A stretch of DNA of 64,000 bases from Nibricoccus aquaticus (lineage in GTDB: Bacteria; Verrucomicrobiota; Verrucomicrobiia; Opitutales; Opitutaceae): contig NZ_CP023344.1 of NCBI RefSeq assembly GCF_002310495.1, positions 4,047,501 to 4,111,500 on the forward strand, read 5' to 3'. Below, in pieces: positions 16,350 through 33,912 of the stretch. The first letter of the stretch is position 1. Every line of letters begins with the position of its first letter. The notes beneath the pieces are model-generated. The model saw nothing but the letters and a program-made list of their open reading frames with translations. It was not told where the DNA came from and ran no database searches. A program made the position numbers and the translations under genes.

Positions 16350-16359
16350 GCGAGTGAAA

Positions 16360-16379
16360 GCGGGGTGGGGGGACCCCGC
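16360..16379. terminator. G/C hairpin between convergent genes
   Basis: GCGGGGT (16360-16366) pairs with ACCCCGC (16373-16379) around a loop of six G. It lies between converging genes. It has no T-run, so termination is only probable. Confidence 0.45.
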
Positions 16380-16401
16380 CTGCAACAGAAGCAGAGCGCG
16401 C

Positions 16402-16932: not shown

Positions 16933-16986
16933 GGAGGAGGACTGAGGAATCCAGCGGGGAGGAAAACGCAAAGCGGGCGGGATGTT

Positions 16987-19377
16987 TTAGCGGCGCTTCT
17001 TGTGTCCTGGTTTGCCGCCTTTTTTGCGGCGGAGATCGGTGGGCGGCTGGTTGCGGGCGGGGGTTTTGGTTGGTGAGAAGACGGGGCGCTTGGCGTTTTT
17101 GGCGGCGGCGGCGGGCGAAGTTTCGGGGACGAGGCGGAAATCGATGAGGCGTTTGAAGCGGTCCACTTTTTCGACGACGACGGTGATGTGGCCGCTGAGT
17201 TCGAGGCTGCGCTTGGTCTTACGGCCGACGAGAGCGGAGCCATCGGAGTTGAGTTGATAGTAATCGTCGGTGAGCGAGCCGGCGGAGATGTAGCCGAAGG
17301 TCATGGACTCTGTGAGCTCGACGAAGAGGCCGTTGCCGCGAACGTCGGTAATGACGGCGTCGAACTTGGTCTTCACGTCTTTGGCCAACTCGCGCTCGAA
17401 GAATTCGAGGAGCTTGATCTTCACGCTCTCGCGCTCGGCTTCGGCGCTGTTCACTTCCGTGAGACTGAGGTGCTCGCCGATGGATTCCATCTGGCCGAGG
17501 GTGAGCGCGGGTCTGGCTCCGCCGATGGCGGGCTGGCCGGCGTGTTTGACGAGGTAGTGATCGAAGACGCGGTGGACGACGAGGTCGCTGTAGCGGCGGA
17601 TGGGCGAGGTGAAGTGGGTGTAATCTTTCTTGGCGAGGCCGTAGTGGCCGTCGGGTGACGCGCGATAGGCGGCTTTTTTCAAGCTGCGCAGGAGCTGGGT
17701 GCGGAGCGTGTAGCCTTGCGGGTGTTTCTCCAGAGTCTGGAGGAGGCGGATGATTCCTTCGCGTTTGGTAAGGTCGCCGGAATCGATGTCGAAGGTGTGG
17801 AGGAACTGCCGGAGTTCATCGAGTTTCTCGGCGTCCGGCTCGTCGTGGACGCGGTAGATGGACGGGAGTTTGTACTGTTTCGTAACGCGGGCGACGGCCT
17901 CGTTGGCGGCGAGCATGAACTCCTCGATGAGCTGATGGCTCTCGTCGTGCTCGATCTTTTCTAGGCGGTCGGCGTAGCCCTCGGCGTCCACGAAGACCTT
18001 GGTCTCGGGCATGTCGAGATCTAGCGAGCCGTTGGTCATGCGGTCTGAGCGGAGACGTTTGGCGATGGACCAGAGCTCGCGAATCCACGTCTGGAGATTG
18101 GTGAGTTCGGTGTCGGTGAGATCGCTGAGCGCGCGGCCGGTGGAGCCGGTCTGGTGTTTGGGCGGGAGCGGGAGGGCGCGGATTTTGGCGATGTCGTCGG
18201 TGAAGAGAAACGCGTAGGCCTGTTTGTAGGTGAGGCGTTTGAGCGAGCGGATGACGGTGTTGCCGTAGTTGGTTTCCTTGAGACGCTGCTTTTTATCGAA
18301 GGTGAGGAAGACGGCTTTGCAGAGGCGGTCCTGGGCTTCGACGAGGGAGCAGAGACCGTTGGAGAGTTTTTCGGGCAGCATCGGGACGACGGTGCCGACG
18401 AGGTAGGTGGAGTTGCCGCGCTTCTGGGCCTCGCGGTCGAGGGCGGTGCCGGGTTTCACGTAGGCGCTGACGTCGGCGATGTGGATGCCGATGCGGATGT
18501 CGCCGCCGTCGAGGTGCTCGATGGAGAGCGCGTCGTCGAAGTCCTTGGCGTCGTCGGGATCGATGGTGAAGGTCGGCGTATCGCGATAGTCGTGACGGCC
18601 GGTGAGCTCCTTCGGCTGAACTGTTGAGGGTATGCCGGCGACCTCGCGTTCGACCTCGGCGGGGAATTGGGTGTCGAGGTTGTACTTGCGGTAGATGCCG
18701 GCGAGTTCAGCGCGGGGCTCGAAGGTTTTGCCGAGGCGCTCGATGATGACGCCTTCGAGTTTCTGGCCGCGTTGTTTCCACTCGCCGAGTTTGACGACGA
18801 CCTTGTCTCCAGGAGCGGGTGTGGGTTTCACGGTGCCGAGGGCAGGGTCGGGAACGTAGATATCGTGAATGAGGCGGGGATCGTCGGGCGTGATGTAGAA
18901 CTGGCCGCGGATTTTCTGGAGGTGACCGACGACTTCGGTGCGGGCGCGTTCGATGACGCGGAGGACGCGGCCGGTTTGCTCGGTGCCGCGACCGTCGCGA
19001 CGGCGCTGGAGGGCGGCGTTGACCTGGACTTCGACGCGGTCGCCGTGAAGGGCGACGCCGGTGTCGTCGGAGGAGATTTGAATGGCATCGACGCCTTTGC
19101 CGACGGTCTCGACATCGGGGATGAAAATGGCGGAGCCGCCGGCGCGAAACATCATGCGGCCACGAAGGTTTTCGCCGGCGTCGCCGCCTTTGGCGATGAT
19201 GAGGTTGTCGCCGCGGAAGCGCTGGAGCTGGCCTTTGGCGAGGAGGAGGCGGACCTCGTGGATTAAAAACTTTTTTTCCTTCTTCTGGAGGCCGAGGAAG
19301 CGGGTGAGGCCGGTTTCGTCGGTGGGGCGGTAGTCGGGGCGGGCAAGGGCGGCGAGGATGGCTTCGCGGAGTTTCAT
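16987..19377 (-). CDS. rnr: Ribonuclease R (RNB family)
   Basis: Processive 3'-5' exoribonuclease that degrades structured RNA. A protein of 796 residues: N-terminal helix-turn-helix and cold-shock domains, then the RNB catalytic domain with the acidic cluster FTIDPDDAKDFDDALS and GIHIADVSAYV. Family hallmarks NSTYLVGTVVPMLPEKLSN, FTSPIRRYSDLVVHR and a C-terminal S1 domain follow, ending in a basic tail (GKPGHKKRR). ATG 19377 (MKLREAILAAL) fits the family; a longer open frame to 19626 would overlap divergent glgA and is rejected. Confidence 0.94.
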   Translation of the reverse strand: MKLREAILAALARPDYRPTDETGLTRFLGLQKKEKKFLIHEVRLLLAKGQLQRFRGDNLIIAKGGDAGENLRGRMMFRAGGSAIFIPDVETVGKGVDAIQISSDDTGVALHGDRVEVQVNAALQRRRDGRGTEQTGRVLRVIERARTEVVGHLQKIRGQFYITPDDPRLIHDIYVPDPALGTVKPTPAPGDKVVVKLGEWKQRGQKLEGVIIERLGKTFEPRAELAGIYRKYNLDTQFPAEVEREVAGIPSTVQPKELTGRHDYRDTPTFTIDPDDAKDFDDALSIEHLDGGDIRIGIHIADVSAYVKPGTALDREAQKRGNSTYLVGTVVPMLPEKLSNGLCSLVEAQDRLCKAVFLTFDKKQRLKETNYGNTVIRSLKRLTYKQAYAFLFTDDIAKIRALPLPPKHQTGSTGRALSDLTDTELTNLQTWIRELWSIAKRLRSDRMTNGSLDLDMPETKVFVDAEGYADRLEKIEHDESHQLIEEFMLAANEAVARVTKQYKLPSIYRVHDEPDAEKLDELRQFLHTFDIDSGDLTKREGIIRLLQTLEKHPQGYTLRTQLLRSLKKAAYRASPDGHYGLAKKDYTHFTSPIRRYSDLVVHRVFDHYLVKHAGQPAIGGARPALTLGQMESIGEHLSLTEVNSAEAERESVKIKLLEFFERELAKDVKTKFDAVITDVRGNGLFVELTESMTFGYISAGSLTDDYYQLNSDGSALVGRKTKRSLELSGHITVVVEKVDRFKRLIDFRLVPETSPAAAAKNAKRPVFSPTKTPARNQPPTDLRRKKGGKPGHKKRR

Positions 19378-19476: not shown

Positions 19477-20922
19477 ATGAAAATCGTCCACGTGGCCAGC
19501 GAGCTTTTCCCATACGTCAAAACCGGCGGGCTGGCGGATGCGGTGGGCTCGCTGTGCGCGACGCTGGCGGGGCACGGGCATGACGTTTCGGTGTTCATTC
19601 CGGGCTATCGGGCGGTGGTGGATCATCGCGATGCCGCTAATGCGGAGAAGGTGATGCCGCTGAAGATCGAGATGGGCGACACGTTCATGAGCGGGGATGT
19701 GCGGATGTTTTCACCGCGGACGAATCTCAAAATTTATCTGATCTGCCGTGAGGAATTTTTTGATCGCAAGTCGCCGTACGGAAACGGGGAGCGTGATTAT
19801 GAAGACAATCACCACCGCTATATTTTTTTCTGCAAGGCCGTGGCCGAGACGCTGCGGCTGACGAATATGCGGGCGGACATTGTTCACGCGCATGACTGGC
19901 AGGCGGCGTTGATGCCGTTGTTTCTGCGCTACGCGGAGCGGCGTCACGGGGTGACGCTCACGCTCAAGACAATCTTCACGATTCATAATATCGCGTTCCA
20001 AGGTGTGTTTCCGATGCGGTCGTTTTATCGGACGAACCTGCCGGAGGAACTCATGGGCATCGATGGCGTGGAGTTTTACGGGCAGATGAGTTTCATGAAG
20101 GCGGGCATTTTGTTCTCGGACCGCGTGACGACGGTGAGTCCGCGTTATTCGCGGGAGATCCAGACGCCGGAGTTTGGCTGCGGGCTGGACGGTGTTGTCG
20201 GGACGCGAGCCGAGGACATCGTGGGGTTGATCAATGGGATCGACACGGCGGTGTGGAATCCGGTGAGCGACGAGCATCTGCCGGCGCGTTACTCGGCGGG
20301 CAATCTGGCGGGTAAGGCAGTGTGTCGCGCGGAGCTTTTGAAGAAGATGAAGCTGGAGCCGGCGGCGGCGAATGTGCCGGTTTTCGGGATGGTGTGCCGG
20401 CTGGCGGAGCAGAAGGGCGTGCAGCTGGTGCTGGCGAACCGGGAGTTTTTCCTGAAGCGGGATTGCCGACTGGTGATTCTTGGCGCGGGAGATCGCAAGC
20501 TGGAGCAGGCGGTGCGGGAGCTGGCGGCGGGGGCACCGGGGAAAATCGCGCTCGCGCAGAAGCTGGACGAGGCGCTGAGCCATCTGGTGGAGGCGGGGAG
20601 CGACTTTTTCGTGATGCCGTCGCTGTTCGAGCCGTGCGGGCTGAACCAGATGTATTCACAAGCTTATGGCACGGTGCCGCTGGTGAGCAGCGTGGGCGGG
20701 CTGGTGGACACGGTGACGGATTTCAACGCGTCACCGGATGAAGGCACGGGGATCAGTTTCGATCCGACGGCCGAGGGACTTGGCTGGGGATTGAAGCGGG
20801 CAGCGGCGCTTTTCCAGGACAAGGTGACTTACTCGGCAGTGCAGGCGCGCGGGATGGCGCGGGACTTTAGCTGGCAGAAGGCGGCGCTGGCGTACGAGCA
20901 GTTGTACGAGAGCGCGCTGTGA
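19477..20922 (+). CDS. glgA: Glycogen synthase (GT5)
   Basis: ADP-glucose-dependent glycogen/starch synthase of 481 residues. The N-terminal ADP-glucose-binding KTGGLAD has Lys15, preceded by the family start KIVHVASELFPYV. Also present are VHAHDWQAAL, TIHNIAFQG and, in the C-terminal Rossmann domain, PSLFEPCGLNQMYSQAYGT with the conserved glutamate. The ATG at 19477 fits family alignment better than the GTG-like opening three codons upstream. It is divergent from rnr with about 100 bases between. Confidence 0.95.
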   Translation: MKIVHVASELFPYVKTGGLADAVGSLCATLAGHGHDVSVFIPGYRAVVDHRDAANAEKVMPLKIEMGDTFMSGDVRMFSPRTNLKIYLICREEFFDRKSPYGNGERDYEDNHHRYIFFCKAVAETLRLTNMRADIVHAHDWQAALMPLFLRYAERRHGVTLTLKTIFTIHNIAFQGVFPMRSFYRTNLPEELMGIDGVEFYGQMSFMKAGILFSDRVTTVSPRYSREIQTPEFGCGLDGVVGTRAEDIVGLINGIDTAVWNPVSDEHLPARYSAGNLAGKAVCRAELLKKMKLEPAAANVPVFGMVCRLAEQKGVQLVLANREFFLKRDCRLVILGAGDRKLEQAVRELAAGAPGKIALAQKLDEALSHLVEAGSDFFVMPSLFEPCGLNQMYSQAYGTVPLVSSVGGLVDTVTDFNASPDEGTGISFDPTAEGLGWGLKRAAALFQDKVTYSAVQARGMARDFSWQKAALAYEQLYESAL

Positions 20923-20960
20923 GCAGGGGCGCGGATCGGCGGGAGGGGGATGTCCGCGGT

Positions 20961-22151
20961 TTACTTTCGCGCGACCGAGGGGGTGGCGATGGTGGCGCGG
21001 GGGATAGGGGCGAAGTATTTTTTCTTCAAGAGGAGCCAGGCAGTCACGAAGAAGGCAGTCAGGGGGATGGCGAGGACCATGCCGAGGACGCCGTCGAGCG
21101 CGGTGCCCCAGAAGAAAATGGCGACGATGATAATGACCGGGTGAAGGCCAGTGCGGTCGCCCATGATTTTGGGAGTGAGGAACCAGCCTTCGATGTTTTG
21201 AACGATGACGTAAACGACGAGCACGAGGCCGGCGAGTTGCGGGCCGCCTTCGGGCTGGAGAAATGCGAGCGGGATGGTGAGGACAAGGCCGACGATCGTG
21301 CCCAAGTAAGGAACGATATTGAGAATGCCGAGGATGAGGCCGAGCACGAGGCCGTATTGGAGGCCGATGATCGAGAAGCCTACCGAAAGGAGCGCTCCCA
21401 TGATGAGGCCGATGACGAGCTGGCCGCGGAAAAATGAGACGACGATGCCGATGAATTCGCGGAGGAGGAAGACGATGTCGGTCCGGGCGTTATCAGGGAG
21501 GAAGGTCAGGTTTTCCGGCAGCTTATGGGTGGGTTCGCCGCGTGAGAGCAGGAAGAAGAATAGGTAGATGGGGATGACGATGGCGTGCGTGAAGAAGCTG
21601 AGCATGGCGAAGAAACCGCCGCCGACGGCCTTGAGCGAAGGGAGCATGGCGGCGGGGACTTTGCCGGCCTGTTCGCGGAGGCTTTCGACGATGCCGGCGA
21701 TCATGGGTTGTTCGAGGAGGCGCTCGACGGTGGCGTTCCAGGCGGGGTAGTTGATCTTCGCGTACGCGACCATGCGTTCCCAGGTGGCGGGGAAGTTGGT
21801 GAAGAAGTCGAGGATCTGTCCGGCGAGCTGGGGGATGATGGCGAAACCGATGCCCGCAACGGTGAGCGTGAACACGCAGAAGAGGACGATCACCGCGGCG
21901 AGGCGGCGTCCCCGGAATTTATGTTCGAGGCGGTCAACGACGGGGCGCAGGATGAGGGCCATGATGCCGGCGACGGCGAGCGGCCAGAGGACGTTGGAGA
22001 AAAAGCCGATGAGGCGACCGAGCACGATGCCGATGAGGACGATGAGCGCGATGGAAGCGACGAGGCAGAAGAAGCTGATGGAGAATCCGAGGATGCGGCG
22101 TTGGGGCGGGCTTAGGAGGGGTTCGGAGTCGGTTTTGGCGGTGTCGGGCAT
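20961..22151 (-). CDS. AI-2E family (DUF20-type) permease
   Basis: A 396-residue inner-membrane protein with about eight hydrophobic segments. Family signs are the N-terminal hydrophobic pair, the long central helical region (VERLLEQPMIAGIVESL), and the C-terminal block NIVPYLGTIVGLVLTIPLAF, QNIEGWFLTPKIMGDRTGLHP and FFWGTALDGVLGMVLAIPL. The name comes from TqsA. Substrates vary across the family, so none is claimed here. It is 63 bases downstream of the RND gene and may be the last gene of that transcript. Confidence 0.88.
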   Translation of the reverse strand: MPDTAKTDSEPLLSPPQRRILGFSISFFCLVASIALIVLIGIVLGRLIGFFSNVLWPLAVAGIMALILRPVVDRLEHKFRGRRLAAVIVLFCVFTLTVAGIGFAIIPQLAGQILDFFTNFPATWERMVAYAKINYPAWNATVERLLEQPMIAGIVESLREQAGKVPAAMLPSLKAVGGGFFAMLSFFTHAIVIPIYLFFFLLSRGEPTHKLPENLTFLPDNARTDIVFLLREFIGIVVSFFRGQLVIGLIMGALLSVGFSIIGLQYGLVLGLILGILNIVPYLGTIVGLVLTIPLAFLQPEGGPQLAGLVLVVYVIVQNIEGWFLTPKIMGDRTGLHPVIIIVAIFFWGTALDGVLGMVLAIPLTAFFVTAWLLLKKKYFAPIPRATIATPSVARK

Positions 22152-22214
22152 GAGCGATAAAGGAGTGAGTGTGGGAGCGTGGCGTCGAGGGCGGACAGCG
22201 ATTTTCGCGCGGGG

Positions 22215-24557
22215 TTACAGCGGAAGAATCGGGCGGCGGCGGGTGTGGTGGTGGAAGAACCAGCGGGCCATCGCGGGCAGAATGACGATGGCGGCGAGCA
22301 TGTTGACCAGAAACATGAAGGTGAGGAGCAGGCCCATATCGGCTTGGAATTTGAGGTCGGAGAAGACCCACATGCCGGTGCCGATGGCGAGGGCGAGGCC
22401 GGTGAAGACGATGGAGCTGCCGGTCTGGATGAATGCGGCGAGCATGGCGTCTTCGAAGTATTCGCCGTTGCGGAGGGTGGCCTGGAGGCGGGCGAAAAGG
22501 TAGATGCCGTAATCGACGCCGATGCCGACGCCGAGGGCGATGATGGGGAGGGTCGAGGTCTTGAGGCCGATCTCGAGCCAGACCATGACGACGTAGGCGA
22601 GCCAGGAGACGAGGGCGAGCGGGGCGACGATGCAGAGGGTGGCGGCGACGGATCGGAAGGTGAGCAGGCAGAGGACGATGACGGCGCCGAAAACCCAGAG
22701 GAGGATGGGAAACTGGGCGGCGGCGACGACTTCGTTGGTGGCGGCCATGACGCCGGCGTTGCCGCTGGCGAGTTGGAAGCGGGCTTTGGGGGACGGATTG
22801 GCCTCGCGGAAAACTTTCACGGCGTCGGCGACGGCATCGAGGGTCTCGGCTTTGTGGTCGGCGAGGAAGATGAAGACGGGCATGACGGAGCCGTCGGCAT
22901 TGAGGAGGCCGGTGGAGGTTTCGATGGGGGCGACGGCCTGGGCGAGGGCCTGGGGGTTGCGGGGGAGGACGCGCCATTTGAGGGAGCCCTCGTTCCAGCC
23001 GGCGTTGAGCAGGCGGGCGACGGAGGCGATGCTGACGACGGATTGGACGCCGGGGACGGAGCGGAGGCGGCCTTCGAACTGGTCGATGAGGCTGACAACC
23101 TCGTGGTCGACGCAGCCGTTGGGGACGGATTCGACGATGACGGTGAGGACGTCGACGCCGATGCTGAATTTTTTGGTGATGAGGGCGCTGTCGAGGTTGT
23201 AGCGGGAGTCCTGGCGGAGTTCGGGGACGCCGGCGTGCAGGTCGCCGATACGGACTTTTTGGGATTGGTGGAAGGCGAAGAAGGCGAGGAGGCCGCTGAC
23301 GATGAGGATGACGATGGAGGGGCCGGGCTCCATGATGACGCAGAAATGTTTCCAGAACGCGTCGGTCTTTTTGCGACGGGCGGCGATTTTGGCGCGGTAG
23401 GGGGCGGGGAGTTTTTGATACGAGAGGAGGAGGGGGAGGAGGAAGAGGTTGGTGACGATGATGGCGGCGACACCGAGGGAGGCGGTGATGGCGAGCTCGC
23501 GGATGGTCTCGATCTTGATGACCAGCATGGTGAGGAAGCCGACGGTATCGGTGAGGAGGGCGACGCCGCCGGGGATGAGGAGCTGGCGGAAGGCGCTGCG
23601 GGCGGCGGTGACGCTGTCGTTGCCCTCGAAGACTTCGGTGCGGAAGGCGCGGACCATCTGGAGGCCGTGGCTGATGGCGATGGCGAAGACGAGGAAGGGG
23701 ACGAGAATCGACATGGGGTCGATGCCGTAGCCGAGGATATTGAGCGCGCCCATCTGCCAGACGACCGCGACGAGCGAGGTGAGGAGTGGAGCGAGGGTGA
23801 GTTTGAGCGAGTGGGAGAAGCCCCAGACGAGCAGGCCGGTGATGAGGAATGAGGCAGCGAAGAAGACGAGGACGCCGCGGGCGCCGGCGCTGACGTCGCC
23901 CATGATGCGGGCGAAGCCGATGATGTGGACGCTGACGGAGGGGCTGGTGAATTTTTCGCGGAGGTTGGTTTCGAGGCGTTCGGCGGTGCGCAGGTAGTCG
24001 ATTTTTTCGCCAGTGGCGGGGTCGATCTCCATGAGGCGCGCGCTGATGAGGGCGCCGGAGAAATCATTGGCGACGAGCTGGCCGACTTTGCCGGACTTGA
24101 TGATGTTTTCGCGGACGGCGGAGAAGGCTTCGGGTGTGGGCTGGAAATTGGAGGGGATGACGGGGCCGCCGGAGAAGCCGTCTTCGACGACTTCGAGGTA
24201 GCGGACGTTGGGTGTGAAGAGGGACTGGACCTGGCCGCGATCTACGCCGGGGAGGAAAAAAACTTCGTCGGTGGCGGACTTGAGGGTGTTAAAAAACTCC
24301 GGCGTAAACATGTCGCCGTTTTTCGCCATGACGGCGATGAGCACGCGGTTGGCGCCGCCGAACTGGTCCTGGTATTGGGTGAAAACCTTGATGTAGGGAT
24401 GTTCGAGCGGGAGCTGTTTGGTGAAGCTGGCATCGACGTGGGTGCGCGCGGCGCAGAGGGCCCACCAGGCGGTGAGGAGGACGAAGGCGGCGATGACGAG
24501 GCCGCGAAAACGGAAGACGAGATTTTCGACGAAGCCGGTGATGAGGTTGGTCTTCAC
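22215..24557 (-). CDS. RND/MMPL-type exporter
   Basis: A 780-residue inner-membrane transporter with two repeated halves, each having one membrane helix, a periplasmic domain and a group of about five helices. Visible elements include YPYIK-like HPYIKVFTQYQDQFGG in loop one, GYGIDPMSILVPFLVFAIAISHGLQM in half one, and IIALGVGIGVDYGIYLFARLQ in half two. These sterol-sensing/MMPL-type motifs place it with lipid or hydrophobic-compound exporters. It starts at GTG 24557 and overlaps the Ycf48-like gene by 4 bases. With DUF1302 and DUF1329 genes upstream it matches a recurrent cluster. Confidence 0.87.
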   Translation of the reverse strand: MKTNLITGFVENLVFRFRGLVIAAFVLLTAWWALCAARTHVDASFTKQLPLEHPYIKVFTQYQDQFGGANRVLIAVMAKNGDMFTPEFFNTLKSATDEVFFLPGVDRGQVQSLFTPNVRYLEVVEDGFSGGPVIPSNFQPTPEAFSAVRENIIKSGKVGQLVANDFSGALISARLMEIDPATGEKIDYLRTAERLETNLREKFTSPSVSVHIIGFARIMGDVSAGARGVLVFFAASFLITGLLVWGFSHSLKLTLAPLLTSLVAVVWQMGALNILGYGIDPMSILVPFLVFAIAISHGLQMVRAFRTEVFEGNDSVTAARSAFRQLLIPGGVALLTDTVGFLTMLVIKIETIRELAITASLGVAAIIVTNLFLLPLLLSYQKLPAPYRAKIAARRKKTDAFWKHFCVIMEPGPSIVILIVSGLLAFFAFHQSQKVRIGDLHAGVPELRQDSRYNLDSALITKKFSIGVDVLTVIVESVPNGCVDHEVVSLIDQFEGRLRSVPGVQSVVSIASVARLLNAGWNEGSLKWRVLPRNPQALAQAVAPIETSTGLLNADGSVMPVFIFLADHKAETLDAVADAVKVFREANPSPKARFQLASGNAGVMAATNEVVAAAQFPILLWVFGAVIVLCLLTFRSVAATLCIVAPLALVSWLAYVVMVWLEIGLKTSTLPIIALGVGIGVDYGIYLFARLQATLRNGEYFEDAMLAAFIQTGSSIVFTGLALAIGTGMWVFSDLKFQADMGLLLTFMFLVNMLAAIVILPAMARWFFHHHTRRRPILPL

Positions 24558-25585
24558 GGCGAAAGAGGGGCCGGGGCTTCGGGGGCGGAGTTGTTATCGG
24601 GCGGTTCGAGGCGGGTGACGCCGGCTTCACCGAAGGCGAGGAGGAGGCCGTTGGGGGCTTCGAGGAGTTCGGCGACGGCGGTGGTGAGTGGGGGCTGCCA
24701 GGCGCGGAAAGTGCGGCCGGCGTCGCGGCTCACGAGGAAGGCGCGGGCCTGTCCGGAGAGGATGATGGTGCCGGATTTGAGGCGGAGGGCGTTGGAGAAA
24801 AGAGCGGGGAGGGGGCTCGCGACGCGCTGCCAGGAGGAGCCGTCGTCTTGCGAGCGGTAGATGTGCCCACGAAGTCCATACGCGAGGAGGGTGTCGGTGG
24901 AGACGGGGGTGAGCCCGTAGAAGGAGGCTTCGTGGGGCGAGGCGAGGCGCTCGGCGGGTTTGTTGAAGGCGGGCAGGCGCAGGAGGGTGCCGCGTTCGCC
25001 GGCGATGAAGAGCTCGCTGTCGTGGCCGTGGGTGATGCGGTTGAGGTGGTTGTCTTCTTCGGAGAGGTGCTGGCGGAGCCAGTTGCGGCCGCTGTCGCGC
25101 GTGGTGTAGCAGACGCCGAAAGCGCCGATGGCGATGGCGCGGGCGGTGTCGATGGCGGCGACATCGAGAAAGACGGTCTCGCGGTCTTCGGCGTGGAATT
25201 GTTCGGTCCAGGTTTCGCCGCCGTCGCGGGTGTAGAGGATGACTCCGTCGTGGCCGACGACCCAGCCTATGGTGGGGTTGGCGAAGGCGATGCCGGTGAG
25301 GGTGGCGTGGGTGGGCGAGGCGAGGGATTCCCAGGTCTCGCCGGAATCGACGGAGCGGACGATGGCACCGCGTTCGCCGACGGCGACGATGGCGTGGCCG
25401 TTGAGAGCGGCATCAAGCAGGAGTCCGCGGGCGGCGTGGGGAATCGGCGAGGCGGCGTGCGCGAGCGGGGCAAGCGCGAGACCGAGCAGAGAAACGAGGA
25501 CGATGAGCTGGCGCAGAGTGAGCGGAAGGGGATTCCGGACTGAGCGCGTGGACGACTGGTGGGAGTTGCCTGCGAGGGCCCGCAT
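24554..25585 (-). CDS. Ycf48-like beta-propeller, exported
   Basis: A 343-residue protein with an N-terminal hydrophobic signal segment (LIVLVSLLGLALAPLAHAA) and repeated BNR/Ycf48 blades: SVDSGETWESL, TRDGGETWTEQF, TRDSGRNWLRQ, SQDDGSSWQRV and SRDAGRTFRAW. Ycf48-type propellers act as assembly or scaffolding factors. Its fixed place beside an RND exporter, DUF1329 and DUF1302 genes suggests an assembly role in that system (inference). ATG 25585 is preferred over the earlier codon at 25660 because it places the signal peptide nearer the start. Confidence 0.8.
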   Translation of the reverse strand: MRALAGNSHQSSTRSVRNPLPLTLRQLIVLVSLLGLALAPLAHAASPIPHAARGLLLDAALNGHAIVAVGERGAIVRSVDSGETWESLASPTHATLTGIAFANPTIGWVVGHDGVILYTRDGGETWTEQFHAEDRETVFLDVAAIDTARAIAIGAFGVCYTTRDSGRNWLRQHLSEEDNHLNRITHGHDSELFIAGERGTLLRLPAFNKPAERLASPHEASFYGLTPVSTDTLLAYGLRGHIYRSQDDGSSWQRVASPLPALFSNALRLKSGTIILSGQARAFLVSRDAGRTFRAWQPPLTTAVAELLEAPNGLLLAFGEAGVTRLEPPDNNSAPEAPAPLSP

Positions 25586-25707
25586 GGCGCCGGAGTGTTC
25601 GGGCTGGCGGCGGGATGACAAGGCGGGAGACGTGGCGCGCCGCGTAAAGGCGTTGCCCACGCGGTTCGGGAGGGGCGCTGACGAAAGAGTATGAGAAAGA
25701 GGCTGCG

Positions 25708-27081
25708 TCAGCGGACGCCTTCGCGGCTGATGGCGCTAGAGGTGAAGTCGGAGAGGGCGGGCTTCACGGAGAAGTCGTACATCTTGTTTTCGTTATCGAG
25801 GCCGAAGGCGAGGTAGCGGCCGGAGACGAGGTCGGTGTGGACTTCGAGGGTGCTCCAGAAGGTGGGGACTTCGTAGTAATTGATGCAGTGGGCCTCGGAG
25901 ACGTACCAGAGCTGGCCGCGGGTGTCGTATTGGTCGGCGGCGAGGATCTGCCAGCTGTCTTCGTCGATGTAGAAGGTGCGGCGCGCGTAGATGTTACTCT
26001 GTCCGGGCTTGAGCGTGGCTTCGACGACCCAGACGCGGTGAAGTTCGTAGCGGGCGAGATCTTGATTGATGTGGAGGGGCTTGAGGATGTCGGCGACTTT
26101 TACCGAGTCGCTGTGAAGTTTGTAAGCGTTGTAGGGGACGATGAGTTCTTTTTTGCCGACGAGCTTCCAATCGTAGCGGTCGGGAGCGCCGTTGAACATG
26201 TCGAGCTGGTCGTTGGTTCTCATGCCGTCGGAGTTGGTGCCGGGGGAGTCGTAGGCGACATTCGGGGCGCGGCGGACGCGGCGCTGGCCGGCGTTGTAGA
26301 TCCAGGCGCGGCGGGGTTCTTTGACCTGATCGAGGGTTTCCTGGACGAGGAGGATGGAGCCGGCGAGGCGGGCGGGGGCGGTGGTGGACTGCTTGTAGTA
26401 GAGGAGGATGTTGTCGAGGGTGGCTTCGGTGACGCCGGGGTGGTTGTAGTGGAAAAGAAACTCGTCCTTAAACTGGACGAGATTGTAGCTGCCGTTGCGT
26501 TGGGGAGCGGCCTGGCCGACGTAGCGGATCGCGGCTTCGCCGCGGTAGCGCACGAGGTGGTTCCAGATGGCTTCGAGTCCGTTTTGGGGGACGGGGAAGG
26601 GCGTGCCGATGAAAGCGCCCTGAAGACCGTTGCCGGTGTCGGTGAGGCGTGCGGTGCCGGCAGTGCTCTTGGTGGCGTCGTAAAAGGACTGGGGGTAGGA
26701 GGCGCTGCGGCGGGACGGGTAGAGGACAATCTTGTAGGTGGGGTAGGCTTTGAGGAGCGCGGCGTGGCCGGGGGTGAGGCGGCTCTCGTATTCGGAGAGG
26801 TTGGACGCGGTGATGGTGACGAGCGGCTGGTCGGCGGCGAAGGGATCGGGGTGATGATCGCCGACCTTGTAGCCAGCGGGAGGGGTGGTGATGCCGCCGT
26901 CCCACGCGGGGATGGTGCCGGCGGAGTTGGCGGCACGCTCGGCGCCGAGGGGGGTGAGTTCGTTGCCGAGGCGGGCGAGATCGGCGTCGGAGATGGCGGC
27001 TAGGGCGGTGAGCGCGAACAGGGGGAGGACGGAGGCAAGAGCCAGGTTACGAATGCGGGAGAGCGATGAGTGGTTCATCAT
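25708..27081 (-). CDS. DUF1329 exported protein
   Basis: A 457-residue protein with a signal peptide ending in ALAAISDA. DUF1329 features are present: the N-terminal LGNELTPLGAERA and IPAWDGG, a middle with RAWIYNAGQRRVRRAP and DQLDMFNGAPDRYDW, and the C-terminal ARRTFYIDEDSWQILAADQYD. The fold is related to LolA/outer-membrane lipoprotein-sorting carriers, so a periplasmic lipid-carrier role fits (family knowledge plus inference). ATG 27081 is chosen; the longer frame to 27159 adds a non-signal-like leader. Confidence 0.85.
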   Translation of the reverse strand: MMNHSSLSRIRNLALASVLPLFALTALAAISDADLARLGNELTPLGAERAANSAGTIPAWDGGITTPPAGYKVGDHHPDPFAADQPLVTITASNLSEYESRLTPGHAALLKAYPTYKIVLYPSRRSASYPQSFYDATKSTAGTARLTDTGNGLQGAFIGTPFPVPQNGLEAIWNHLVRYRGEAAIRYVGQAAPQRNGSYNLVQFKDEFLFHYNHPGVTEATLDNILLYYKQSTTAPARLAGSILLVQETLDQVKEPRRAWIYNAGQRRVRRAPNVAYDSPGTNSDGMRTNDQLDMFNGAPDRYDWKLVGKKELIVPYNAYKLHSDSVKVADILKPLHINQDLARYELHRVWVVEATLKPGQSNIYARRTFYIDEDSWQILAADQYDTRGQLWYVSEAHCINYYEVPTFWSTLEVHTDLVSGRYLAFGLDNENKMYDFSVKPALSDFTSSAISREGVR

Positions 27082-27117
27082 GGCGGAAGGAGTGACGTGA
27101 GTTTTTTTCGGAAGATT

Positions 27118-27148
27118 ACACAGAGAGCACGGAGGTGGCACAGAGGGT
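27118..27148. repeat. CACAGAG/CACGGAGG short-repeat patch
   Basis: Three imperfect copies of a 10-base unit (CACAGAGAG, CACGGAGGTGG, CACAGAGGG) sit between the DUF1329 and DUF1302 genes. The region 27082-27282 shows nothing else. Confidence 0.45.
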
Positions 27149-27282
27149 TGAGAGGCCAATAAGCGGGTGATGTCTGTGTGGCGGTCGAGGCTGAGGTGAG
27201 GAGACGGGGAGCCGGGATTTCAGTCGGAGTGCGACGGCACTCGTCTGATTTTGAATCGAGAGGTGCCGACGGGAATGTGGAC

Positions 27283-29277
27283 TTAGAACGAGTATTTGAC
27301 CGTGGTGGAGGCGTAGTCGCGGTCGGCGAGGAGATTGTAGCGGCCGCCGCCGAAGAAGTTGACGTAGCGGAACTCCAACGACCAGGCGTTCTGCCAGGTG
27401 AACTCGGCGGCGACGTTGAGGGACTTGCGGTCCTCGATGAAGTTGCCGAGCGGAAGCGGGGTGTTGCCGCGGACGTCGTGGGTGAAGGCGACGGAGGGGG
27501 CGAGGTTCACGCCGGAGAAGAGGTTGTTGTAATCGAGACGAGCAAGGAGCTGGTAGCCCCAGGAAAGACCGTCGGGGAAGGCGGCGGTGGGCGTGGCGGG
27601 GACGGTGCTGAAGCCGGCGCTGTTCATCATAGCTTGGGAGCCGCCGGTGAAGGTGCCGGCGCCGTCGAAGCGAAGGGTGTTCTGGCTGGGGAGATCGGGG
27701 ACGTAGATGGCGCCGACCTCGCCGAGGACGGTGAGCTGGTTGGCGCGGAGCATGGGGCCGAAGACCTTGGTCATGGTGGATTGGACGGACCAGACGTCTT
27801 CGCGTTTGAAGCCGGGGACGTAGGCGCGGTACTGGCCGCGGTAGTTGCCGAGCTGGTTGCTGGCGCCGAAGTTCGTGCCGCCGGTGGTGTCGAGGGCGGA
27901 GAGCGTGGCGAAGAGGAGTTCGACGTCGTCGACCTGGAGCGGGACGCCATGCTTGTAGGAGACTTCGCCCTGCCAGGCGATGCCGAGGGAATCGAGACTG
28001 GTGTTGAAGCTGAGGCCGAGCATCCGGATGTTTTCGGGGTACTCGATGAAGTAGCGGCCCGTGGCGGCGGCGGTGAGAAGCGCGATCTGACGGGCACCGG
28101 CGATGGCGGCCTGACTTTGCGGGGCGTTGAGTGTGGAGATCTGGCCGGAGGTGAGAGCGCCGGGATTGGTTTGAGCGAGGACGATGATCTGGAAAAGTCC
28201 GGCGGCTTGGGCGGCGGCGGTGGTGGAGTCGAGGCCGGCGCGCATGAAGACGGCGGTGAGCGGGCCGGTGAGGTTGGTGTTGATGGAGCCGGTGGGTGTG
28301 ACCGCGCTGATGACGGGGAGGCGGCTGTGGTAGTTGGCGAAGAAGAGACCGAACTCGGTGTCGGCTAGGGCGGGGACGGAGAGTTTCAGATTGGCGCCGT
28401 ACTGGGTGTAGTTGTTGCCCTCGTGATCGAGGTCGCGGGGGATGCCGCCGAGCGGTTGCTGGTCGGAGAGGGCACCGAAGGCGAGGTAGACGTTGCGGCC
28501 GCCGCGGGTGGCGAAGTCATTGGAACTAAAATACGTGCCGGCAGGGTCGATCTCGGTGCGGCGGAATTCGAGGAGCCAGAAGGCTTCGAGGGAGATCGTG
28601 TCGGTGAGGCCGACGGCGGCCTTGAGCATGTTGACCGGGAGCAATGCCTCGCGGAGTTCAGAGCCGGGGACGCGAAGGCGGGAGACATCGACGGGGTTAA
28701 TGACGTTGATGCCGTTTGGAATGAAGGTGCTCTCGCCGAGGCTTAGCACCTGGCGGCCGAAACGGAGATCGAGGGAGCGGCCGGCGATCTCGAATTGGCC
28801 GCGCACATACATGTCGAGCCATTGGGCGTCGGAGCCGACGCGGTCGAGGGCGTCGTCGGAAAGCGGGGTGCGGGCGCGGTCGGCGTCTTTGTTTTCGACG
28901 TCGTAGAAATAAGTACCGCGGACGAAGGCGCCGAAGTTGTTGTAGCGAAGTTCGAGATCGTGAGTGCCTTTGAAGACCTGGGAGGCCCAGCCCTTGGGGT
29001 AGTTGAGATTGCCGTCGTCGGCGTTGACGGAGTTTTGCTGGCCGCCGTTGGCGAGGCCGTAGAACTCGGGGTTGGGGGCCTGGAGCCGGTAGATGCCGCC
29101 GGCGGACAAGGTGCTGTCGAAGCTGCCGGTGAGGCCGTGCCAGTCGAAGGAGACGGCGAAGGCGGCGGAAGCGGAAAACGCGGCGAGGGCGAGGCTGGTG
29201 GCGATGCGGGCGGTGGGGCGGAGGCTGAGAGCGGGACAGGCGGTGGCGGGAGTTCGCATGGGAAGTTTCGCGGACAT
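27283..29277 (-). CDS. DUF1302 outer-membrane beta-barrel protein
   Basis: A 664-residue protein with a signal peptide (LALAAFSASAAFA) and many short beta strands, ending in an aromatic residue (TTVKYSF) typical of outer-membrane barrels. The DUF1302 signature region is RSLDLRFGRQVLSLGESTFIPNGINVINP... (only the family idea is used here, residues about 160-190). DUF1302 and DUF1329 genes are regularly adjacent. With the downstream RND exporter this could form a trans-envelope route (inference). ATG 29277 (MSAKLP) is chosen because the longer frame overlaps divergent uvrA. Confidence 0.84.
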   Translation of the reverse strand: MSAKLPMRTPATACPALSLRPTARIATSLALAAFSASAAFAVSFDWHGLTGSFDSTLSAGGIYRLQAPNPEFYGLANGGQQNSVNADDGNLNYPKGWASQVFKGTHDLELRYNNFGAFVRGTYFYDVENKDADRARTPLSDDALDRVGSDAQWLDMYVRGQFEIAGRSLDLRFGRQVLSLGESTFIPNGINVINPVDVSRLRVPGSELREALLPVNMLKAAVGLTDTISLEAFWLLEFRRTEIDPAGTYFSSNDFATRGGRNVYLAFGALSDQQPLGGIPRDLDHEGNNYTQYGANLKLSVPALADTEFGLFFANYHSRLPVISAVTPTGSINTNLTGPLTAVFMRAGLDSTTAAAQAAGLFQIIVLAQTNPGALTSGQISTLNAPQSQAAIAGARQIALLTAAATGRYFIEYPENIRMLGLSFNTSLDSLGIAWQGEVSYKHGVPLQVDDVELLFATLSALDTTGGTNFGASNQLGNYRGQYRAYVPGFKREDVWSVQSTMTKVFGPMLRANQLTVLGEVGAIYVPDLPSQNTLRFDGAGTFTGGSQAMMNSAGFSTVPATPTAAFPDGLSWGYQLLARLDYNNLFSGVNLAPSVAFTHDVRGNTPLPLGNFIEDRKSLNVAAEFTWQNAWSLEFRYVNFFGGGRYNLLADRDYASTTVKYSF

Positions 29278-29464
29278 GGATGAAAACTGTCGCGGGAGAT
29301 CTGGGGTGTCGCCGCTGAAGGAGCGGCGGACATGCGGGGTGGTGCGGGTTAGCAAAGAGAGGGATGGAGGCCGTTCAAGGAAGAAGCTTTGGCGGGTGGG
29401 TGTGAAAACTGTTGGTCGGGTTTTGACGCGCGGCGCGAAATGACGAACGTGCGCGTTTATCTTC

Positions 29465-32323
29465 ATGCAGGCTGCGACACACATTCACGTTAAAGGAGCC
29501 CGGGAACATAACCTCAAAAATCTCGAGGTGCGTCTGCCGCGCGGGAAGCTGGTGGTGCTCACGGGGCCGAGCGGGTCGGGGAAGTCGTCGCTGGCTTTCG
29601 ACACGATTTACGCGGAGGGCTACCGCAAATACATGGAGTCGCTCAGCACGCAGGCGAGACAGGTGCTGGAGCAGCTGAAGCGGCCGGATGTGGATTTTAT
29701 TCATGGGCTGTCGCCGGTGCTGGCGATCGAGCAGCGGACGGGAAACGGTTCGCCGAGGAGCACGATCGCGACGGTGACGGAGATCGCGGATTATGCGCGG
29801 TTGCTGTGGGCGCTTCATGGGGAGCAACGGTGTCCGAAAGACGGCGGGCGGGTGACGCAGCGGTCGCTGGACGATAATGTGGCGCGCGTGTTTGCCGAAG
29901 TGCCGGGGGAACGTGTGCTGTTACTGGCGCCGCTGATGAACGCGAAGCCGAGTGTGTTGAGGGAAGAACTGCCGAGGTTGCGGCAGCGCGGGTTTCAGCG
30001 CGTGCGGCTGGATGGAGAGATCAAGAGTCTCGACGATCCGAAGCTGGTGCCAAGCGGCGCAAAGGAGATTACGGTGGATCTGGTGGTGGATCGGTTGGTG
30101 GCGAATGCGGATCAGCGTAGCCGGATGGCGGATTCGCTGGAACTGGCGTTTCGCGAAGGACGCGATCGGGCAGTCGTGCTGGCGCAGAAAACGGCGGATG
30201 CGCCGTGGCGGGAAATCACGCTCAGCCAGTCGCTGGCGTGCGAGATTTGCGGCGACGTTTTCGAGAAGCTCACGCCGAGGCATTTTTCATTTAACCACAA
30301 TGAAGGCGCGTGCGGCACATGTGGCGGGCTGGGGCGGAAGCTGCGGTTTGTACCGGAGCTGGTGGTGCCGGATCCAGAGAAGTCAGTGCGCGAAGGCGCG
30401 CTCAAGCCGTGGCGTATCGGCGGGAAAAATCTGATCATAAAACACAACGCGATCCTCAAGCAGCTCGCGGAGCAGCTGCCGTTTGACGCGGAGAAGCCGT
30501 GGAAGGATCTACCGGAGAAAACGCGGGAGATTTTGCTGCGCGGAGCGGGAGAGCGGTTGTTTGCGTTTAAGCTGAAGAGGATGCGGGAGCCGAAGGCCAT
30601 GGTGTTTGCCGGGGTGATTCCGATGCTGGAAGAGAGCTGGCGCGAGACGGACAGCGAAGGGTTTCAGGCACGGCTGACGACGTACATGGTCGCGGGGGAG
30701 TGCCCGGAATGTCACGGCTCACGGCTCAACGCGCGGAGCAGTGCGGTAAGCGTGGGCGGGAAAGCGCTGCCGGAGTTTTTTGCGTTGGGCGTGAACGAGG
30801 CGGCGGAGTTTGGGCGGGAGTTGGTGGCGAAACTGGCAGGGAATGAGGCGCTGAACGAGATCGTGACGGGCGTGGAGCAGCGGTTGCACTTCCTGCTGCA
30901 GACGGGGCTGGGTTATCTGACGTTGGATCGCGACTACGACACGCTATCGGGTGGCGAAGCGCAGCGCGTGCGGCTGGCGACACAGTTGGGGATGGGGCTG
31001 ATGGGCGTGATTTATGTGCTGGATGAGCCGAGCATCGGATTGCATCCCGCGGATAACGACCGGCTGCTCAAGCAACTCATCGAATTGCGCGATCGCGGGA
31101 ACACGGTGCTGGTGGTCGAGCACGACGAAGAGACGATGCGGATCGCGGACGAGATCATCGAACTCGGGCCGGAGGCGGGAGCGGAGGGCGGGCGTATTCT
31201 GTTTCAGGGCACGCCGGCGGAGTGCATGGCGCAGCCGTACAAGGTTTCACGGACGGGCGCTTATCTGGCGCGGAAGATGTCGGTCTCGAAAGATGCGAAG
31301 ACGAAGATCGCGGATGGGACGTGGCTGACGGTGCGGGCGGCGCGGGAGCATAATTTGCGGGACGTGGATGCGCGTTTTCCCGTGGGTTTGCTGACGTGTG
31401 TCACGGGCGTTTCAGGCTCGGGGAAAAGCACGCTGGTGAATGACGTTCTCGCTGCGGCGGCGGCACGGAAGCTGAATGGCGCGAAGTCGATTCCGGGGAA
31501 ACACCGGCATATCGAGAATCTGGATTTCTTCGAGAAGCTGGTGCAGGTGGACCAGGAGCCGATCGGGCGGAGTCCGCGGTCGAATCCGGCGACGTACACG
31601 AAGCTGCTGGATTTGTTACGCGATCTCTTTGAGCAGGTGCCGCTGGCGAAAGTGCGCGGGTATAAGGCGAGCCGGTTTTCGTTTAACGTGCGCGGTGGAC
31701 GCTGCGAGCGGTGTCAGGGCGATGGCGTGATCAAACTGGATATGCAGTTCATGGCGGATGCGTATGCGCCGTGCCCGAGTTGTGGCGGAAAGCGGTTTAA
31801 TCGTGAGACGCTTGAAGTGATGTTTCACGGCAAGAGCATCGCGGATGTGCTGGAAATGTCGGTACGCGAGGCGATGGGGCTTTTCCGGAATATCCCGCGG
31901 ATCATGGACAAGCTGGAGACGTTGAATGCGGTCGGACTCGGGTATCTCACACTCGGGCAGTCGGCGACGACGCTCTCGGGTGGTGAGGCGCAGCGCATCA
32001 AGCTATCGCTTGAGCTGAGCAAGCGTCAGCAAGGGCACACGCTCTATATTTTGGACGAGCCGACGACGGGGCTGCACTGGGCGGACATCCAGAACTTGAT
32101 GGATCTGCTCTTCAAACTGCGCGACGCGGGGAATACGGTCATCGTGATCGAGCACAATCTGGACGTGATCAATCTGGCGGACTGGATCATCGATCTCGGG
32201 CCGGGGGGCGGAAGCGCGGGTGGAGAAATTGTTTTTGCAGGGACGCGCGATGAGATAGAGAAGGCGGAGCGTTCGCTGACGGGCGTGGCGTTGAAGCGGT
32301 GGAGCGAAGCGGCGAGGAAGTAG
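29465..32323 (+). CDS. uvrA: UvrA-family excinuclease ATPase
   Basis: A 952-residue ABC ATPase for damage recognition in nucleotide excision repair. Two ATP sites: Walker A at 34-42 (GPSGSGKSS) and GVSGSGKST in the second half, with signatures LSGGEAQRV and LSGGEAQRI. Zinc-binding clusters are [14 protein letters not shown] and [15 protein letters not shown]. Several positions differ from typical Uvr[14 protein letters not shown] for the usual IDQKT-type motif, and LARKMS between halves. It may therefore be a UvrA paralogue rather than the main copy. It ends with TAG, showing that TAG is a real stop here. Confidence 0.88.
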
Positions 32324-32360: not shown

Positions 32361-32390
32361 AAAAAGCCCCGGATTGCTCCGGGGCTTTTT
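32361..32390. terminator. Bidirectional terminator between uvrA and pal
   Basis: AAAAAGCCCCGGA pairs with TCCGGGGCTTTTT around a four-base loop. T-runs occur on both strands, so it can serve both converging genes. Confidence 0.9.
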
Positions 32391-32415
32391 AAGTTTTGAG
32401 AAGTGCGCGAGGGGC

Positions 32416-32976
32416 TTACTTCGTGATGAAGATGATGTCGGCGCGGCGGTCGTTCGCCATGTCGGCGTCGGAAGCGTTTTCTTTGGCGTCGATGTCGCCT
32501 TTGGAGATGACTTCGATGCGAGCGGCGGGAATACCGAGGGTCTCGAGGTACTTCTTGGCGGAGGCAGCGCGGCGGTCACCGAGGCCGAGGTTGTACTCGG
32601 CGGTGCCACGCCAGTCGCAGTGGCCTTCGAAAAGGACGCGGTGGGTGGGGTTGGCGTCGAGGTGGGCCTTGGCCTTTTGAATCTTAGCGCGTTCGCTTTC
32701 TTTGATGCCGGCGCGGTCGAGGTCGAAGAAAACGGGTTCGGAACCGCGGAGGAGGTCGCCGTCAACGAGAAGGCCGTCGGTGCGGGCAGTGAGGTCGGTG
32801 CCTGGCTCCAGGAGACCTTGGCCGAAGTCGCCACCAACGCCACCGCCAAGACCACCACCTTGTTGACCGAGGACGGTCGAATTCGGATCAGGCCGGGAAG
32901 GTTTTTTAACGCAGCCGGTGAGGGCGACGACGGCACTGAGAAGAGCGAGGGAAAGAGACTTCGAGAAGAGGTTCAT
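32416..32976 (-). CDS. pal: Peptidoglycan-associated lipoprotein
   Basis: A 186-residue lipoprotein anchoring the outer membrane to peptidoglycan. The signal peptide ends in the lipobox LTGC with Cys22. A Gly-rich linker (38-52) follows, and then the OmpA C-terminal domain: PVFFDLDRAGI, FEGHCDWRGTAEYNLGLGDRRA and a final NDRRADIIFI. This matches Pal closely. Other tol genes are not adjacent in the window. Confidence 0.93.
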   Translation of the reverse strand: MNLFSKSLSLALLSAVVALTGCVKKPSRPDPNSTVLGQQGGGLGGGVGGDFGQGLLEPGTDLTARTDGLLVDGDLLRGSEPVFFDLDRAGIKESERAKIQKAKAHLDANPTHRVLFEGHCDWRGTAEYNLGLGDRRAASAKKYLETLGIPAARIEVISKGDIDAKENASDADMANDRRADIIFITK

Positions 32977-33063
32977 GAGATGGTGGAAAGTCAGCAGTGG
33001 TTGACCTTATTGAGTAACGGAATTGCGTCGGCAAGTCATTTATCCCCTGTGCGCCACTGACTC

Positions 33064-33912
33064 GTGAAATCCCCGTATCTGCCGACGTGTTTTCTGTTCG
33101 ATAATGGTTCGCTGCGCCCGGCATCGACACTGAATTTGCGTGCGGTGGCGAAGGCATTGGAAGGCGAGATCGGGGCGACGGTGAAGGCGGTGTCGTTGCT
33201 GCATTCGAGCGGCGTGGATGCGGGCGAATTGGGCGGAGAGCGGGCGCAGTTGTTGGAGCCAGCGCTGAGCGAGTGGCTAGCGGAGGGGGCCAAGGGGCCG
33301 GCGGTGTTGCTGCCTTTCTTTTTTGGGCCGAGCGCAGCGCTGACGGTTTACGTACCGGAGCGAGTCGCGGCGCTGCGTGCGAAGTTTCCGGATGCGCGGC
33401 TGGAGCAGGCGGGCTGGCTGGTGGATGTCGGCTTGGAAGATGGCCGGGTGGCGGGGGCTTTGGCGGCCGCTGTGCGGGCGACGATCCGGCGGGAGAATTT
33501 GACGAGCGCCAAAGTCGTGGTGGTCGATCACGGGAGTCCGTTGCGCGGTGTGGCGCAGGTGAGGGATCATCTCGCGTGTCAGGTGGCGGGCTTGCTAGGT
33601 GCTGAAGTCGCGGAGGTGAGCATGGCCTCGATGGAGAGTCGCGAGGGGGCGGAGTATGCGTTTAACCGGCCGTTGCTCGCGGAGCGGCTGAGGGCGGCGC
33701 CGTTCGATGCGGGGGACGTGGTGCTGGCGTTGCAGTTTTTATCGCCGGGGCGTCATGCAGGCGCTGGCGGAGACATCGCGGAGATTTGCGAGGCGGCGAA
33801 GGCGGAGCGGCCAGGGTTGCGTACTTGGATGACGGAGACGATCGGCGCGGATGCGCGGGTGATCGGCGTGCTGGCGGAGCGTTATCGGGAGGCGGCTGGG
33901 CGGGTGGGGTGA
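33064..33912 (+). CDS. CbiX-like sirohydrochlorin chelatase family protein
   Basis: A 282-residue protein with two related halves, as in CbiX/SirB chelatases that insert cobalt or iron into sirohydrochlorin. Seen: VLLPFFFGPSAALTVYVPERV in half one, VVVDHGSPLRGVAQVRDHL (the HGS-like entry motif) and ALQFLSPGRHAGAGGDIAEI in half two, with histidines in both key positions. The N-terminal half has FLFDNGS where active CbiX usually shows a HGS motif, so only one half may be catalytic. It opens with GTG at 33064. Confidence 0.75.
   Translation: MKSPYLPTCFLFDNGSLRPASTLNLRAVAKALEGEIGATVKAVSLLHSSGVDAGELGGERAQLLEPALSEWLAEGAKGPAVLLPFFFGPSAALTVYVPERVAALRAKFPDARLEQAGWLVDVGLEDGRVAGALAAAVRATIRRENLTSAKVVVVDHGSPLRGVAQVRDHLACQVAGLLGAEVAEVSMASMESREGAEYAFNRPLLAERLRAAPFDAGDVVLALQFLSPGRHAGAGGDIAEICEAAKAERPGLRTWMTETIGADARVIGVLAERYREAAGRVG

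Follow-up and report, generated by a model that had tools for sequence, protein, structure and literature searches.

A DUF1302-DUF1329-YCF48-RND gene quartet in Opitutales as a candidate fatty-acid importer of the AmeABCD kind

Four consecutive genes on the minus strand of a 64-kb stretch of the Nibricoccus aquaticus chromosome (hereafter the window, G000:C1:4047501-4111500; the host genome, G000, is complete in a single contig of 4.73 Mb) encode a DUF1302 protein, a DUF1329 protein, a YCF48-type beta-propeller and an RND transporter, which raises the question of what such a quartet carries across the cell envelope and in which direction. The names DUF1302 and DUF1329 still stand for unknown function, and the published direction of related systems varies, one being read as a terpene exporter, another unconfirmed for benzene and a third linked to growth on Tween 20. 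An initial annotation of the window had added a permease at the end of the gene row and suggested lipid export. Here we tentatively propose that, in this branch, the quartet is a trans-envelope carrier of the AmeABCD kind that imports free fatty acids or similar hydrophobic carboxylates; the substrate, the inward direction, the proton drive and the formation of a complex are what we infer from the observations below.

Conservation and relatives of the quartet

Among 288 genomes of the phylum, DUF1302 matches above 480 bits are present in 17, namely 16 of the 25 listed genomes of the same family and one of the 263 others. In all 17 loci of such genes compared with the window, DUF1302, DUF1329, YCF48 and RND genes follow each other in the same order; the four core genes are thus a real unit, and their order is not due to chance. 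A divergent uvrA gene is located next to DUF1302 in 15 of these loci (16 of 18 with the window), the exceptions being L027, which has the same quartet order, and L031. A second scan, in which a DUF1329 alignment was searched against named genomes, covered the best 80 of at least 595 relatives, those most similar to an Indioceanicola protein, and is accordingly an uneven sample. The contiguous quartet was found in 55 of these 80 loci, from at least five phyla, in line with the initial annotation, which had made its proposal depend on co-occurrence of the four families in other genomes. Ten loci (from Pseudomonas, Stutzerimonas, Thiopseudomonas and one gammaproteobacterial genome) encode DUF1329 with or without DUF1302 and have no YCF48 or RND match within 8 kb downstream; the remaining 15 are interrupted by contig ends or otherwise arranged. 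For two of the weak DUF1302 matches in other Verrucomicrobiota, L018 and L019, the larger surrounding regions (L042 and L043) contain no quartet match. Two tandem DUF1329 genes per cluster are present in Wenzhouxiangella and a related bin (L118, L131, and L133).

The AI-2E family permease, which the initial annotation had counted as the terminal part of the unit, does not share this conservation. Its gene is immediately 3' of the RND gene in only 4 of 18 loci (the window, L036, L038, and L041), is some kilobases away in L026, L028, L029, and L033, and is directly downstream in 6 of 9 Verrucomicrobiota loci of the named-genome scan; one of these nine loci is on a contig that stops just after the RND gene. 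Gene order therefore rules it out as a core part and makes it a frequent neighbor. In L028, a MacB/FtsX-type permease gene (3146-5821) lies on the opposite strand between the RND and AI-2E genes, and in L041 the uvrA match (12996-16121) is in two pieces separated by a gap of ~280 bases, perhaps an insertion.

The quartet belongs to a kind that has already been described and is not new. In Castellaniella defragrans, AmeABCD consists of the same families in the same order (DUF1302, DUF1329, a protein of the COG4447/photosystem-II-factor type and an RND protein, there classed as HAE3), and this kind has been called a distinct lineage with conserved cassettes (PMC6394551). The two are likened by families and order, not by sequence identity, and their settings differ: AmeABCD is part of a monoterpene island and is read as an exporter, whereas the window quartet lies beside uvrA and glgA and has no adjacent catabolic genes. 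Related parts have been described in Pseudomonas putida, where growth on Tween 20 requires PP_0765 and PP_0766 (DUF1302 and DUF1329) as well as PP_2018 and PP_2019, a pair made up of a periplasmic protein and a transporter of the RND type ("multidrug efflux"), and where co-folding predicted weak contacts of the DUF1329 protein with the barrel and the pump but a strong PP_2018-PP_2019 contact (PMC10866462). The P. putida genes are split over two loci; likewise, the Pseudomonas pairs in the present scan have no match to the remaining two genes within 8 kb. We infer that these pairs are orthologs of PP_0765/PP_0766 and that PP_2018 belongs to the YCF48 family. Other relatives are linked to aromatic substrates: in the Delftia nanopod, DUF1302 and DUF1329 genes are adjacent in a phenanthrene gene cluster (PMC3110197), and a benzene "Nanopod" cluster combines DUF1329, a porin-like protein, YCF48 and MMPL, with a DUF1329 protein only 21% identical to a Delftia one and a transport direction that "cannot yet be confirmed" (PMC13101534). 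The hopanoid transporter HpnN, an HAE3-type RND protein, works without partner proteins (PMC6394551). In the available portions of the open-access papers PMC6394551, PMC10866462, PMC3110197, and PMC13101534, a fatty-acid importer role is not proposed for this system; nothing further on fatty-acid uptake by it was found in the open-access papers searched, and MMPL, RND and DUF do not occur in the available portion of PMC13273656.

Phylogenetic trees were built for DUF1329 (85 rows, a careful tree), RND (66 rows, quick) and DUF1302 (74 rows, quick), after removal of near-duplicate rows of 23 or 24 hand-picked loci, nine of them from the same family. The Opitutales rows form one group in each (support 97/90, 100, and 72, respectively), and the proteins of the window cluster with Opitutaceae rows, in a compared set that included no Verrucomicrobium sequence. 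In the DUF1329 and RND trees, Opitutales fall within or beside a branch of desulfobacterial, Myxococcota-labeled, Nitrospirota, Acidobacteriota and some proteobacterial rows, and in the DUF1329 tree the plasmid members L046, L047, and L049-L051 are placed outside that branch, mostly on long branches. The simplest reading of these trees would be a single acquisition in the ancestor of Opitutales followed by vertical descent beside uvrA.

Neighboring genes and the proposed route of fatty acids

The clue to the substrate comes from the neighbors of the quartet in 104 related loci (17 from the phylum scan, 80 from the named-genome scan and 7 from plasmids, the window not being counted). Matches of at least 110 bits anywhere in the locus DNA to acyl-coenzyme A (CoA) ligase, FadB, thiolase, VolA-type phospholipase or acyl-CoA dehydrogenase are found in 26 of them (1 of 17, 21 of 80, and 4 of 7, respectively), often adjacent to the quartet; since these queries were picked after the neighbors had been seen, the count is descriptive and not a test. 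L031 (G010:C25:790300-810200) is the second quartet copy of a genome from the same family; there, genes for an acyl-CoA ligase, a FadB-type protein with 3HCDH and ECH domains, and a thiolase come after the RND gene in the same orientation. Additional thiolase and FadB-like matches (15315-18809, plus strand) are located on the other side of this locus. In L063, L064, and L070, the next genes after the RND gene encode FadD and then FadB, and several Pseudomonas loci and L044 encode a divergent thiolase, FadD, DUF1302 and DUF1329, mostly also with a MalT-like regulator; in the Pseudomonas loci, FadD immediately precedes DUF1302-DUF1329. All seven loci that match the phospholipase of L100 (six from Lysobacterales and Wenzhouxiangella and one from a Nitrospirota bin) carry this VolA/Pla-1-like gene immediately 5' of DUF1302 and in the same orientation; the L100 protein, the only one of the seven scanned, scored 372.8 bits against a model cut-off of 383.9. 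The plasmid locus L046 has an acyl-CoA dehydrogenase and a CoA-transferase as neighbors, and in L068, L087, L122, L045, and L049 the match is more distant or on the opposite strand. Pairwise identity among the FadD neighbors of L031, L063, and L106 is only 24-28%, and these genes hence look independently recruited. Because genes of beta-oxidation or phospholipid cleavage lie near the quartet in these 26 loci, we favor fatty-acid uptake over the lipid export of the initial annotation, which finds no support over import given the catabolic neighbors in some relatives and the impaired growth of related mutants on a hydrophobic substrate.

The same annotation had the proteins span the envelope; for the quartet this agrees with the models and with Pfam, which identifies the RND protein as a pump, whereas the permease drops out as no part of the unit. 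In the AlphaFold model of DUF1302 (mean predicted local distance difference test score, pLDDT, 87.2; 40 sequences), about 18 long strands form a barrel, and there is a helical stretch at 337-404, with OccK/OprD-type channels as the top fold matches (Z 22.9, root-mean-square deviation, rmsd, 3.1, 307 residues) and AlgE at Z about 21. The DUF1329 model (mean pLDDT 89.2, 41 sequences) has a LolA fold at about 165-456, with residues 167-456 matching LolA3 of P. gingivalis (Z 20.6, rmsd 2.6, 235 residues) and residues 165-453 the DUF1329 structure 4z48 (Z 18.9); the N-terminal part (about 33-164) is confident in the model and lies outside both matches. When solved structures were searched by sequence, DUF1329 had no match and DUF1302 a single irrelevant one (E 0.6). 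FadL resembles the DUF1302 protein in the proposed role of fatty-acid entry and differs in family: DUF1302 as a FadL homolog was rejected, with a match to PF06980 only and none to PF03349. FadL is also absent among the 50 best fold rows for DUF1302, which proves nothing. In the RND protein, D682-Y683 of transmembrane helix (TM) 10 and S296-H297 and Q300 of TM4 (numbered by the usual RND scheme) are invariant in 83 of 83 rows. Given that the MmpL4 and MmpL5 alignments have an Asp-Tyr pair in both halves, a first half with Ser-His seems to be characteristic of this RND family, in a comparison limited to these two proteins. The weak profile matches of the RND protein include an NPC1-related chain (24 bits).

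We hypothesize that free fatty acids or similar hydrophobic carboxylates would enter through the DUF1302 barrel and would be ferried through the periplasm by the LolA-like DUF1329 protein. The YCF48 propeller would dock onto the RND protein, which, driven by protons, would hand them to the inner membrane, where an acyl-CoA or acyl-acyl carrier protein (ACP) ligase would trap them. By analogy, passing the substrate inward from a soluble carrier to an RND protein would be similar to the transfer of cholesterol from NPC2 to NPC1. In the host genome, the acyl chains might pass into membrane lipids through an Aas-like enzyme.

Import weighed against efflux and lipid export

The last step is proposed because genes of beta-oxidation are missing from the host genome. 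It has no match to acyl-CoA dehydrogenase (PF00441) or FadL (PF03349); no FadB was found, the only 3HCDH match being doubtful (7.8e-4), nor a FadA thiolase. The five thiolase-superfamily matches score no more than 46.8 bits; the best one is FabH, another is fabF of the window and three are further ones. The two enoyl-CoA hydratase-like proteins are MenB and an RpfF-like crotonase. Judging from this gene content, the host appears to lack beta-oxidation of the usual kind, so that the quartet cannot feed the ordinary pathway there. Of its six AMP-binding proteins, one resembles Aas-type acyl-ACP/phospholipid acyltransferases (766 bits against a cut-off of 1221), which makes it possible that acyl chains are used for membrane lipids; the others are similar to AcsA, to a fatty acyl-AMP ligase, to an OleC-like fatty acid CoA ligase and to MenE, and one has no match at threshold. 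A fatty-acid kinase route (FakB/DegV) was rejected, with no PF02645 match in the host genome.

Distribution was compared across 120 genomes of the family, with the quartet judged from DUF1329 alone, strong-match thresholds of our own setting (DUF1329 >500 bits, FadB domain E <1e-30, acyl-CoA dehydrogenase E <1e-15, FadL E <1e-40) and one domain search that scored at most 25 first-pass candidates per genome. The quartet is present in 61 genomes, and 59 have no strong DUF1329 match. Acyl-CoA dehydrogenase was found in 30/61 genomes with the quartet vs 9/59 without (p 8e-5; at the Pfam cut-off, 39/61 vs 16/59, p 6e-5), the FadB domain in 33/61 vs 13/59 (p 4e-4) and strong FadL in 11/61 vs 19/59 (p 0.09). 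When only genomes with a strong acyl-CoA dehydrogenase match are compared, a strong FadL match is present in 4/30 with the quartet vs 6/9 without (p 0.004). In genomes that degrade fatty acids there is a trend for the quartet to take the place of FadL, which varies with the threshold and could stem from shared ancestry; simple replacement of FadL is unsupported across the 120 genomes and is seen only within those with acyl-CoA dehydrogenase.

Several observations weigh against fatty-acid import. No fatty-acid-type neighbor is present in 78 of the 104 loci, and only one of the 17 phylum-scan loci, all from Opitutales, has one. Counted per genus, the associations weaken to p = 0.08 (acyl-CoA dehydrogenase), 0.09 (FadB), 0.38 (FadL), and 0.11 (FadL contrast); with all FadL matches above the Pfam cut-off, the contrast becomes 9/30 vs 6/9 (p 0.06) and the comparison of all 120 genomes 24/61 vs 24/59 (p 1). 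Both beta-oxidation markers are missing from 26 of the 61 quartet genomes, including that of the window, so feeding beta-oxidation cannot be the only function. The MMPL relatives with solved structures, such as MmpL4/5 and HpnN, are exporters. Furthermore, AmeABCD has been read by its authors as an exporter for tolerance: the ameABCD deletion mutant grew like the wild type on perillic acid and, given acetate, on low limonene, grew normally on perillyl alcohol and aldehyde, was less tolerant to limonene and, when de-energized, accumulated more Nile Red; a transposon insertion in ameB, by contrast, did lower growth on perillic acid (PMC6394551). With Nile Red up and growth on perillic acid normal, the deletion data fit tolerance better than uptake; because of them, and of the null result for FadL over the 120 genomes, we place the probability of import somewhat below even.

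The structures of these exporters and the phenotype of the ameABCD deletion are likewise what speaks for a pump that expels toxic hydrophobic compounds, conferring tolerance to solvents, terpenes or fatty acids, the role proposed for AmeABCD. We nevertheless consider such an outward pump doubtful, given that other mutants are impaired on the substrate itself, as seen for P. putida on Tween 20 (PMC10866462) and for a Delftia DUF1329 deletion on phenanthrene, as retold in another paper (PMC13101534), and that acquisition accounts better than efflux for a VolA-type phospholipase immediately upstream.

Transfer of a self-made lipid from the inner to the outer membrane, the idea of the initial annotation, would be consistent with the retention of the quartet in the 26 genomes lacking both beta-oxidation markers, with a constant, housekeeping-like position next to uvrA (16 of 18 loci) and with the predicted LolA fold of DUF1329. 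The 59 family genomes that lack a strong DUF1329 match indicate, however, that no lipid essential to the family depends on the quartet, and the catabolic neighbors in some relatives also speak against it, so that it appears improbable. Two candidate lipids were rejected. Hopanoids, the substrate of HpnN, have no squalene-hopene cyclase (SQHop_cyclase_N, PF13249) match in the host and only three weak partial ones in the 120 genomes. The link to long-chain olefins was dropped because OleC-like matches (E <= 1e-60), which resemble olefin beta-lactone synthetases (in the host, G000:C1:2045588-2047369) and nowhere exceed the model cut-off in the 120 genomes, are present in 114 of them, with or without the quartet, and so do not discriminate.

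Import of some other hydrophobic nutrient in this lineage, be it a terpenoid, an aromatic or a hydrocarbon, would confine the fatty-acid link to other branches. It would fit the benzene cluster with its related genes (PMC13101534) and the plasmid members near dmpG and coniferyl aldehyde dehydrogenase (L051), 4-hydroxyphenylpyruvate dioxygenase (L049) and pobA (L050), but L047 and L049-L051 lie, albeit on long branches, outside the branch of the DUF1329 tree that holds Opitutales, Desulfuromonads, Pseudomonas and Alteromonadales, and we regard this explanation as very improbable.

Fatty-acid import thus remains our preferred explanation. In its most specific form, which we consider unlikely as a whole, the quartet would be a FadL-independent, proton-driven, four-part importer of free fatty acids, similar to NPC2/NPC1, with an asymmetric relay in its pump (Asp-Tyr confined to TM10, Ser-His invariant in TM4), acquired once in Opitutales, fixed beside uvrA and, in genomes like that of the host, uncoupled from beta-oxidation and serving the acylation of membrane lipids.

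The locus and its significance

The five co-oriented reading frames and the family names of the initial annotation all hold in Pfam and NCBIfam searches.

Table 1. Genes of the quartet and two of its neighbors (window coordinates; ORF, open reading frame).
Feature	Coordinates	Strand	Evidence and remarks
DUF1302 outer-membrane barrel (AmeA-like)	27283..29277	-	PF06980 1.3e-159; listed ORF 27283-29484
DUF1329 periplasmic LolA-like carrier (AmeB-like)	25708..27081	-	PF07044 2.2e-156 (Pfam, ORF 25708-27159)
YCF48/PSII_BNR beta-propeller (AmeC-like)	24554..25660	-	PF14870 1.2e-17; NF010237 2.5e-17, below cut-off
MMPL, putatively HAE3-type RND transporter (AmeD-like)	22215..24557	-	PF03176 4.5e-28
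AI-2E family permease	20961..22151	-	AI-2E_transport PF01594 3.3e-51; 63 bases downstream of RND gene
uvrA, divergent neighbor, outside the transporter	29465..32323	+	NF001503 above cut-off; marks conserved chromosomal site

The listed DUF1302 ORF runs into the start of uvrA, and a signal-peptide-like stretch follows the ATG at 29277, which is likely the true start and equals the end coordinate of the initial annotation. DUF1329 probably starts at the ATG rather than at the TTG of its listed ORF; the protein has an additional Pfam LolA_like match barely above its cut-off. For the RND protein, the top NCBIfam model is HAE3 TIGR00921 (5.6e-49, 166.9 bits, below its cut-off of 351.9). The YCF48 stop and the RND start overlap by 4 bases, and the spacing, including that of the permease gene, is operon-like. 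The flanks of the row are occupied by glgA (called from translation alone) and the divergent uvrA, with no genes of fatty-acid activation or oxidation beside the quartet. Neither a membrane-fusion protein nor a TolC-like channel, as in HAE1 tripartite pumps, has a Pfam match among the cluster proteins, and none of the five cluster genes is a LolCDE-like ABC gene, the inner-membrane partner being, according to Pfam, the RND protein. Scans for promoters (0 matches, shuffle mean 0.7), terminators (10, shuffle mean 5.4) and Rfam families (0) were uninformative.

At 20001-30000, the GC skew is 0.29-0.35, with the quartet on the minus strand; the long plus-strand ORFs opposite it (e.g., 22179-23852), which are rich in Gly, Glu and Asp, are taken as composition artifacts. 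Elsewhere in the window, a gene run at 41236-49264 (alpha-L-rhamnosidase, F5/8 C-domain, SASA-type esterase, and DUF2264) is probably involved in polysaccharide degradation, and at 32374-33912 a 228-aa ORF without a Pfam match is located immediately ahead of a CbiX-domain gene.

For a system whose first two families are still named as domains of unknown function, the neighbor evidence yields a specific, testable substrate (fatty acids) and a direction (inward). Should the proposal prove true, RND proteins would serve bacteria as importers of a nutrient, and those that lack FadL would gain a defined candidate for the entry of fatty acids.

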